Positions 18,059 to 21,800 of a DNA stretch of 64,000 bases are shown piece by piece. Position 1 is the first letter of the stretch. Every line of letters begins with the position of its first letter. The stretch is from Alphaproteobacteria bacterium. GTDB lineage: Bacteria; Pseudomonadota; Alphaproteobacteria; Caulobacterales; Maricaulaceae. The notes beneath the pieces are model-generated. The model did not search any database. It was not told where the DNA came from and worked only from the letters and a program-made list of their open reading frames with translations. The position numbers and the translations under genes were made by a program. The stretch is taken from contig JAJRSJ010000012.1 of the NCBI GenBank assembly GCA_024278855.1, forward strand, positions 1 through 64,000, given 5' to 3'.

Positions 18059-18688
18059 ATGGAGCATAACTTGACCAAAACTTCGCAAAACCCCGTTCAG
18101 ATGATCGCCTTTGATTTTGACGGCACGATCACGACAACCGATACATTGGCTTTGTTTTTTCGCTATTGGGCCGGGACACCGCGTTGGGTATTCAATATCC
18201 TGAAATTGTCACCTGTCCTCATCGGGTATGTGATACGGATTGTGCCGCGCGATACGGTAAAAGCCCATTTGGTTCGGGCGTTTTTCAAAGGCGCGGACGC
18301 GGATGAACTTAACAGGCGCGCCGCCCAATTTGCCCGTGAAGTAATCCCCGATTTGATTCGCCCCGCCGCCCTCAAAGCCCTGGCTGAAAAGAACAATCCA
18401 CCCTATACACTCTATATAGTTTCGGCTTCCATCAGCAATTATCTGGATATTTGGGCACATGATAACGGAATTAAGCATGTAATCGCGACTGATCTTGAAA
18501 TTAAAGACGGCAAGCTGACCGGAGAACTTTTGGGCCGAAATTGTTGGGGGCCGGGCAAAATGGCGAAAATTTCCGCAAAAATGGCCGAAACTCCCTATGA
18601 AATTATAGAAGCTTACGGAGACACACGCGGAGATAGAGAAATGTTACACGCCGCTCAGGTGTCTTACTTCAAACCTTTTCACCTGTGA
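18059..18688 (+). CDS. HAD-IB family phosphatase
   Basis: A 209-residue HAD hydrolase. Motif I is DFDGTITTTDT with both catalytic aspartates, motif II is VSASISNYL, and motif III/IV are the conserved Lys region and YGDTRGDREML. A hydrophobic stretch (WVFNILKLSPVLIGYVIRIV) in the cap suggests membrane association. The family includes phosphoserine phosphatase-like enzymes and the phosphatidylglycerophosphatase PgpC (YfhB), which this resembles in cap and motif I, but I cannot assign the substrate. The ATG at 18059 is favoured; an ATG at 18101 (MIAFDFDG) is the shortest alternative. Divergent from putA across 88 bp. Confidence 0.8.
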   Translation: MEHNLTKTSQNPVQMIAFDFDGTITTTDTLALFFRYWAGTPRWVFNILKLSPVLIGYVIRIVPRDTVKAHLVRAFFKGADADELNRRAAQFAREVIPDLIRPAALKALAEKNNPPYTLYIVSASISNYLDIWAHDNGIKHVIATDLEIKDGKLTGELLGRNCWGPGKMAKISAKMAETPYEIIEAYGDTRGDREMLHAAQVSYFKPFHL

Positions 18689-18753
18689 CGCATATTCCAT
18701 TTGATTTTTGTCAAAAAAATGTACTGTTCTGTACGAACACCCTAGCCAAAACA

Positions 18754-18768
18754 TTAAACTTTGGTTAA
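18754..18768 (+). promoter_or_regulatory. Candidate CtrA binding site upstream of the giant gene
   Basis: The sequence TTAA-ACTTTGG-TTAA matches the full CtrA consensus TTAA-N7-TTAA of Caulobacter-type alphaproteobacteria. It lies 62 bp before the ATG of the giant gene, a usual distance for a CtrA-activated promoter. The site is seen directly; the regulator is inferred, since ctrA itself is not in the window. Confidence 0.6.
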
Positions 18769-18830
18769 GGTAAGGTTCATGTCTGCATTAGTAGGCGTTA
18801 TTGTTATTATTGTATTTAGGGGAATTTGAT

Positions 18831-21800
18831 ATGAAACGTGTACTTTTATTGGCGGTATGTACTGCTGCATTAACAATACCATCCATCGCTCAGGACTTGC
18901 CGCCGGGCAATCCGCTACCCGGTGAATGTTTTGCAAGGGTTATCGTCCCTGCACAATATCAGGTTTCAACTGAACAAATCGTTCTTCGTGAAGCTGGCGA
19001 GGAACTCCGTAAAATTCCTGCCGTGTATGAAACCGTTACTGAACGGGTTTTGGTTCAAGAACCTAGCTTTCAAATCGTACCTGTCGGCTCTGCAATTGGC
19101 ACACGTTTGGTTCCTGGTATTGGCAAGATTAGAATTGATATTAACGGCACCCATTACCATATTGATTCCGACCGCACTGTTCGAAGTGCGGGCGGTGATG
19201 TCATCGGAACCGTTGACGGCGACGGCAATATTGTCAGCCACAACGGCGCCGTAATTGCCCAACATGCAGTGAACCCCCTCACGCTTATTGGTACTGGTTC
19301 TGGCGCACACACAATTTTGACAATTGGCACTACTGATTATCACATTGATGACAACATGGGAGTTTTCACTGCAGGCGGACGCCGCATTGGCGCTCTGACG
19401 ACGGGCGGCAATATTGTTGGCTCTAACGGCGCGGTCATCGCAAGACATGCGGTGAACTCATATACTGGCACTGGTGTTGGAAACGGGTTTGCCGGCACAG
19501 GCTTTACTGGTACTGGCGCATTGGCGCGGCCAACATTCCGTACAACCACCGACACCGTTATCGTTTCAGAAGCTTCTAGCGAGTTGGTCATTATACCGCC
19601 CGTTTACGGCACCGTAACCGAAACGGTCGTGGTTCAACCTGAAACCATCGAATATGTTTCTATTCCTGCCGTTTACGATACAGTCACAGATACTGTTGTC
19701 GTTCAGGAAGCCTCCGCACAATTCGTATCTATTCCACCGGTTTACGGCACCGTTAGCGAGACGGTCGTGGTACAAGAAGCAACAAGCGAACTTGTTACCA
19801 TACCCGCCACTTTTGAAACTGTGCGCGAGACCATAGTCGTACAGCCACAATCCGTAGACTATGTGAGCATTCCCGCCACTTACGAAACCGTAACCGATAC
19901 CGTTATCGTGCAAGAAGCATCGACTGAATTACTCACAATACCCGCGACTTTCGAAACCGTGAGCGAAACCGTTGTCGTCTCGGACGCAACAACGGAATTG
20001 GTCACCATACCCCCGGTATTTGGTACCGTTTCACAAACCATTGTCGTGCAAGAAGCAACAAGCGAATTGGTCACTATACCTGCGACGTTTGAAGCGGTTA
20101 CAGAGACCATCGTGGTCACACCGCAAACCGTTGACTATGTGACAGTCCCCGCAAGTTTTTCTACGGTTTCGGACACCGTAATTGTACAAGAAGCAGCGAC
20201 CGAGCTGCTGACCATTCCGGCGACATTTGAAACCATTAGCGAAACCATAGTCGTACAGCCTGCCAGTACTGAACTGGTCAGCGTACCGGCGCAGTACGGC
20301 ACGGTTACGGAAAACATTGTTGTTCAGGAAGCTAGCGCGGAATTGGTCACTATTCCTCCGGTTTTCGAAACCGTTACAGATACTATAGTTGTTCAACCCC
20401 AAAGCGTTGAATATGCGAGCGTGCCGGCAACATTTGAAGGCGTTACAGAAACGATCATTGTCCAGGACGCCAGTGTAGAGCTTGTGGCAATTCCTGCCAG
20501 CTTTAGAAGCGTCACCGATACCGTTGTCGTAACCCCGCAAAGTGTCGACTATGTTACAATTCCTGCGGTTTTCGAGACCGTATCCGATACAATCGTCGTA
20601 CAAGAAGCGGCGACGGAACTTTTATCCGTACCAGCCGTTTTCGAAACCGTTACAGACACAATTTTGGTGCAACCGCAAAGCGTCGAATATGTGAGCGTTC
20701 CGGCCACCTATGAAAGCGTCTCTGAAGCCGTTATCGTCCAGGAAGCTTCAACTGAACTGGTCGCTATTGCACCCGTGTTTGAAACGGTCACAGATACAGT
20801 TGTTGTGCAACCTGCCGGCGTTGAATATATCAGCGTGCCTGCCGTGTACGAATCCGTTAGCGACACGATCATCGTTCAAGAAGCCGCGACCGAACTGGTC
20901 ACGGTAGCACCCGTATTTGAAACTGTGACAGATACCATTGTGGTCTCGCCGCAAAGTGTTGACTATGTAACTGTCCCTGCGGTTTACGACACGGTGAGCG
21001 AAGCCGTGATTGTGCAAGAAGCTTCAACTGAACTGGTACAAATTCCGGCCGTGTTTGAAAGCGTGACAGAAACAGTTGTCGTACAACCTGCCAGTACTGA
21101 ATATGTCAGCATTCCGGCGACCTATCAAACCATACAAGAGGCCGTCGTGGTTCAGGAAGCCTCAACCGAGTTGGTCAGCGTGCCGGCCATATTTGAAACC
21201 GTGACAGAAACCTATGTGGTGACACCGCAAAGCGTCGAATTGGTCGTGGTTCCCGCCGTTTTTGAGACGATTTCAGAAAGCTATATCGCCCAACAAGCCT
21301 CAACAGAGCTGGTAACCGTGCCTGCGGTTTACGAGGCCGTGACCGATACTGTGGTGATCACACCGCAAACAGTTGATTATGTCGCCGTCCCCGCAGACTA
21401 CGAAACCTATCAAGAGACGATTGTTGTACAAGAAGCATCAACCGAGCTTGTCACCGTCCCTGCGACTTTCGAGACGGTTACCGATACCATTGTTGTGCAG
21501 CCGCAAAGCATTGGTTATGTGACCGTTCCTGCGACCTATGAAAGCATATCTGAAGCCGTAATCGTGCAAGAAGCCACGACTGAACTGGGCTCTGTTCCGG
21601 CCGTGTTTGAAACAGTGACCGATACCATTGTTGTCCAGCCTGCCGGTGTTGAATATGTCTCCGTTCCGGCCAGTTATGAGAGCGTTTCCGAGACACTTAT
21701 TGTCCAGGAAGCCACTATAGAATTGGTGACTATACCTGCGGTGTTTGAAACCGTTACAGACACAATTTTGGTGCAACCACAATCCGTAGATTATGTCACG

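Follow-up and report, generated by a model that had tools for sequence, protein, structure and literature searches.

In Caulobacter crescentus, the CtrA motif starts near -39 of the mapped transcription start at promoters that it activates and near -14 at those that it represses (PMC4287350). In the same organism, 93% of -35 motifs begin between -34 and -37, and sciP is among the CtrA-controlled promoters (PMC4287350). In Hyphomonas neptunium, ChIP-seq yielded TTAA-N7-TTAAC as the CtrA consensus (PMC7200025). Here we analysed a CtrA-type dyad in front of a gene for a giant repeat protein; by the window we mean the whole stretch of DNA that was analysed, 64,000 nucleotides in length.

A motif scan of the window found one full TTAA-N7-TTAA, TTAAACTTTGGTTAA, which we call site B and which ends 62 nt before the ATG of the giant gene (Table 1). 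An earlier note, made from the sequence alone, had read this dyad as a full CtrA consensus at a suitable distance from the start of the giant gene, and the gene as a CtrA target whose protein may be made at one cell-cycle stage or pole. The dyad is present exactly where that note placed it, at 18754-18768, and is the unique full match in the window. Its half-sites and N7 spacing agree with the consensus, but its context is A[TTAA-N7-TTAA]G, without the outer C of TTAA-N7-TTAAC (PMC7200025). The match alone is weak evidence, because chance would supply about one in 64 kb; the calculated expectation is 1.48, and 82 of 100 shuffles of the window contained at least one. The likely start codon of the giant gene is ATG 18831, which opens a signal-peptide-like sequence (MKRVLLLAVC) with the same kind of start in orthologues. 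The TTG at 18801, the start given in a mechanical list of open reading frames, was set aside for this conserved ATG.

Table 1 Features in and around the control region of the giant gene (positions in the window)
Feature	Position	Strand	Basis or remark
HAD-type phosphatase gene, upstream neighbour	18101..18688	+	adjacency kept in most relatives; approximate start
TTGATT, conserved TTGA(A/T) block, presumed -35 element	18701..18706	+	inferred
GAAC, at the position of the site A right half (TTAA[C]) of most relatives	18735..18738	+	lost in this species; alignment, anchored profiles
Stem-loop SL1 of the presumed leader RNA (TAGCCAAA / TTTGGTTA)	18743..18767	+	RNA folds; covariation in clade II
Site B, full TTAA-N7-TTAA (CtrA-type)	18754..18768	+	left TTAA, SL1 loop; right TTAA, SL1 3' strand and just past
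Stem-loop SL2 of the leader RNA	18781..18796	+	compensatory changes at 7/7 pairs across relatives; centroid fold
AGGGG, presumed ribosome-binding site (GGGGG in most relatives)	18818..18822	+	8 nt before the ATG
Giant gene, 3038 aa	18831..27947	+	signal-peptide-like start, 23-residue repeats (acidic block, basic block), PG_binding_1 domain, beta-flower-like C terminus

The giant gene was present in 39 of the 137 genomes of its family; among named organisms, its relatives occur in Robiginitomaculum, Hellea, Algimonas and Litorimonas relatives. A DNA search for the gene in four genus members without it, which had no positive control, found none. The encoded protein (P0001) is charge-bipolar, with a stretch of about 1200 residues in acidic 23-residue repeats and, after it, one of about 1100 residues in basic 23-residue repeats. 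In all 15 complete orthologues checked, the charge of these blocks was roughly -20 to -35, then +15 to +40, per 200 residues. Such a protein could fold back on itself or zip with other copies. Structure predictions of the two repeat types were too poor for use (mean pLDDT of 45 and 36), and a PDB sequence search found no relative. The N-terminal repeat motif has distant relatives outside the family, in Saprospiraceae of the Bacteroidota (L045 and L046) and in a gammaproteobacterial bin (L047).

The genome encodes a CtrA orthologue (G000:C13:51470) that is identical to the Caulobacter protein at 192 of 231 residues (83%), and at 88 of 102 in the DNA-binding part. Its recognition-helix stretch is identical to that of Caulobacter CtrA. 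Genome-wide, the N7 spacing was not in excess: it occurs at 38 sites, whereas spacings N2-N12 average about 47 sites each. The placement of N7 sites was specific to this spacing: in 424 kb of the genome, 7 of 8 were intergenic and before a gene, compared with 44 of 143 for other spacings of 0-20 (Fisher p=0.002), and genome-wide 27 of 38 lay outside predicted genes (p=8e-6). About 14 of these 27 intergenic sites are expected by chance, and roughly half may be real. At least 14 of the 27 have an intact counterpart in the alignment with the sister genome G111, a count that comes from selectively fetched regions, is biased to retained sites and includes one or two less certain alignments (L015, L097). 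Site B was intact there, with both half-sites kept and three of the seven spacer bases changed. A flgJ-like flagellar gene served as a positive control: of 10 genus members, 9 retain its full N7 site, and the spacers vary. We rejected gcrA as a conserved CtrA control, as its N7 site was present in the window's genome only. Together, the intergenic placement, the CtrA orthologue and the retention of the flgJ-like site suggest that N7 sites in this genus behave as functional CtrA motifs would, although one match by itself proves nothing. Two pairs of close or overlapping N7 sites (G000:C34:119019-119057 and G000:C44:33495-33520) were also seen, upstream of a ribonucleotide-reductase-like and a RelA/SpoT-like gene.

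We compared the upstream regions of the giant gene between two clades, which were taken from a tree of the neighbouring HAD protein and the N terminus of the giant protein. Between -150 and -40, a full N7 site was found in 21 of 36 distinct upstream regions, compared with 0.4 in shuffles; the regions are related, not independent, and 21 against 0.4 is no probability. Other spacings (3 to 12) occurred 0-3 times in the same regions. In clade II, the sister clade of 23 taxa, the dyad lies about 30 bp upstream of the site B position. No dyad of the family is better conserved than this site A (TTAA-N7-TTAACG), which is full in 15 of the 23 taxa and has one mismatch in 5. On the tree, its half-sites show 0-3 changes and its flanking bases mostly 4-9, and its spacer changes freely. 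Clade I consists of 13 taxa, from the window's genus and one more, and has lost the left half of site A. Its site B reads TTAA-N7-TTA[A/G] and is full in 4 of the 13 (the window's species, L019, L020 and L040), with TTAG in most others. The window's species lacks the right half of site A as well.

These comparisons bear on two alternatives to a CtrA site. The first, that site B is a chance match without function, draws on the expected number of matches per 64 kb and on the share of intergenic sites that chance would supply. It was already unlikely on the conservation data: the sister species retains site B, most of clade I has it with at most one mismatch, and the count of full sites across the upstream regions far exceeds that in shuffles. 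We consider it very improbable. A second alternative is that the block CCTAGCC-N15-GGTTARGNT is itself recognized, as the site of another regulator or as a core promoter element, and that TTAA-N7-TTA[A/G] is an accidental part of it. In clade I, conservation of the spacer TTTTGG and of the flanking CCTAGCC and GNT equals that of the half-sites, as this reading would predict. However, clade II conserves TTAA-N7-TTAAC with a freely changing spacer, and the block fits no known promoter consensus, which leaves this alternative unlikely. We favour CtrA, which probably controls the giant-gene family from a box whose place differs between clades. A search of a paper library for CtrA together with binding-site turnover found no paper with both terms.

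A third alternative arises from the RNA. The region covered by the earlier note (18754-18830) is the 3' portion of a conserved leader of about 95 nt, in which SL1 and SL2 precede the ribosome-binding site. Covariation of SL2 is family-wide. For SL1, we counted 55 double-change cells in clade II against 27 in shuffles, and 0 of 1000 shuffles reached 55. In clade I, SL1 did not covary, and only its base, CCTAGCC/GGTTAGG, is kept, the upper stem having decayed. RNAalifold on the whole leader found SL2 alone because the SL1 loop differs in length in the Litorimonas group. A model of the leader found it at the giant gene alone among the genomes searched, weak matches aside, and Rfam covariance models gave no match to 18500-19000 up to E=1. 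G110 has a partial tandem duplication of the leader (L040, G110:C46:191424-191592; two model matches), and SL2 occurs twice in L019.

Site B consists of the SL1 loop and the SL1 3' strand, and the dyad may be a by-product of this structured leader, with CtrA not acting here in this species. Stem-loops at the 5' end, such as those of ompA, stabilize mRNA, and the leader would perhaps stabilize the 9-kb mRNA or tune its translation. The geometry fits, with one TTAA in the loop and the other in the strand that pairs with the conserved CCTAGCC, as do the covariation of both stems and the confinement of the leader model to the giant gene. The GGTTAG of most clade I members is the exact partner of CTAGCC, and their TTAG, which pairs better in SL1 than TTAA does, counts against the CtrA reading. 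Yet the structure does not demand a TTAA in the loop. Clade I keeps the loop TTAA in nearly all members, although the SL1 loops of clade II differ, and keeps it at a fixed distance from GTTA even though its SL1 lacks covariation. We regard a by-product of the leader as possible, though well short of probable, and for the window's species we see about even chances that site B is a CtrA site. The same bases could also serve both CtrA binding and SL1.

Because the stems of SL1 and SL2 covary, we argue that both are transcribed, and therefore that transcription starts upstream of site B. A strict sigma-70 promoter scan of the plus strand found nothing. If the TTGA(T/A) block is the -35 element, the start would lie near 18735-18738. 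Site B would then begin near +19, away from both the activator position (-39) and the repressor position (-14); counted in the same way, the clade II site A would begin at about -14, where repressor sites start. The 'suitable distance' of the earlier note was thus not borne out: site B overlaps SL1, and its distance from the ATG is no sign of a standard activator site. The note's view of the giant gene as a CtrA target fared better, with a CtrA orthologue whose recognition-helix stretch is unchanged, a working N7 motif in the genus and retention in the family far above chance, but the exact dyad is not generally conserved. Upstream of orthologues, an N7 site is often retained and the sister genome keeps site B itself; the exact dyad is limited to a minority of clade I, and the full site of clade II is elsewhere.

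We propose that the giant-gene family of Robiginitomaculaceae has a control region with a CtrA-type site that changed place. Clade II would use the canonical site A as its CtrA box; in clade I, the remnant of site A and site B would make up a sciP-like block; and in the window's species, that half of site A is gone and site B is a full TTAA-N7-TTAA. Phosphorylated CtrA is predicted to bind site B and to tie transcription to the cell cycle, perhaps with a polar effect. Since the apparent place of the dyad is in the leader, downstream of the core promoter, bound CtrA would more probably damp transcription than activate it in the classic manner. A broader proposal, which we put forward tentatively and consider rather doubtful, is that a CtrA DNA site and a leader stem-loop occupy the same bases, that the site moved about 30 bp between the clades with the stem-loop limiting where, and that CtrA directly controls a giant cell-surface or wall-binding polymer, the product of a charge-bipolar envelope family of prosthecate bacteria. 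If the CtrA reading is right, stalked marine bacteria would have in their CtrA regulon a giant protein of repeats that also carries a peptidoglycan-binding domain, and the family would clearly exemplify the movement of a CtrA site inside a single promoter region without loss of control. The locus also illustrates how misleading a perfect match to a motif can be where its bases are part of a folded leader.

A weak match of the leader model in G107 (E=0.087) was the region upstream of sciP, a gene named here from its protein sequence, and was rejected as a second copy of the leader. Upstream of sciP, all 11 genus members read carry TTAA-N15-TTAACC followed by a TT[TGA]GTAAA-like sequence. The block TTAA-N15-TTAA-NN-TTTG occurred 24 times in 14 genomes (10 at sciP, 1 at a sciP-like sequence in G116, 4 at the giant gene and the rest scattered) and is common to the sciP promoter and several clade I giant genes; this comparison is post hoc and its weight moderate. 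The sciP upstream regions (L239-L250) also show, throughout the genus, a strongly conserved TTAAC-N14-TTAACC with a GTTAGGG-N-GTTTTTAA block about 40 bp downstream.

Among known systems, the sciP upstream region of the same genus resembles several clade I giant genes in having TTAA-N15-TTAA and then TTTG, but the giant gene of the window lacks the first TTAA, and sciP has TAAA in place of the second half of site B. The leader shares with ompA-type stabilizing 5' stem-loops the presence of short stem-loops ahead of an envelope-protein coding region, whereas it has no Rfam match and a stabilizing role here is putative. The full-motif TTAA-N7-TTAA promoters of Caulobacter crescentus have the same half-sites and spacing, and the two CtrA proteins are nearly identical in the DNA-contacting part; the starts there are mapped (PMC4287350), whereas here the start is predicted and site B seems to lie inside the leader. 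Hyphomonas neptunium, from the same order of stalked bacteria, has the same dyad at sites that are almost all intergenic (PMC7200025); the outer C of its consensus is absent from site B but present in site A of clade II.
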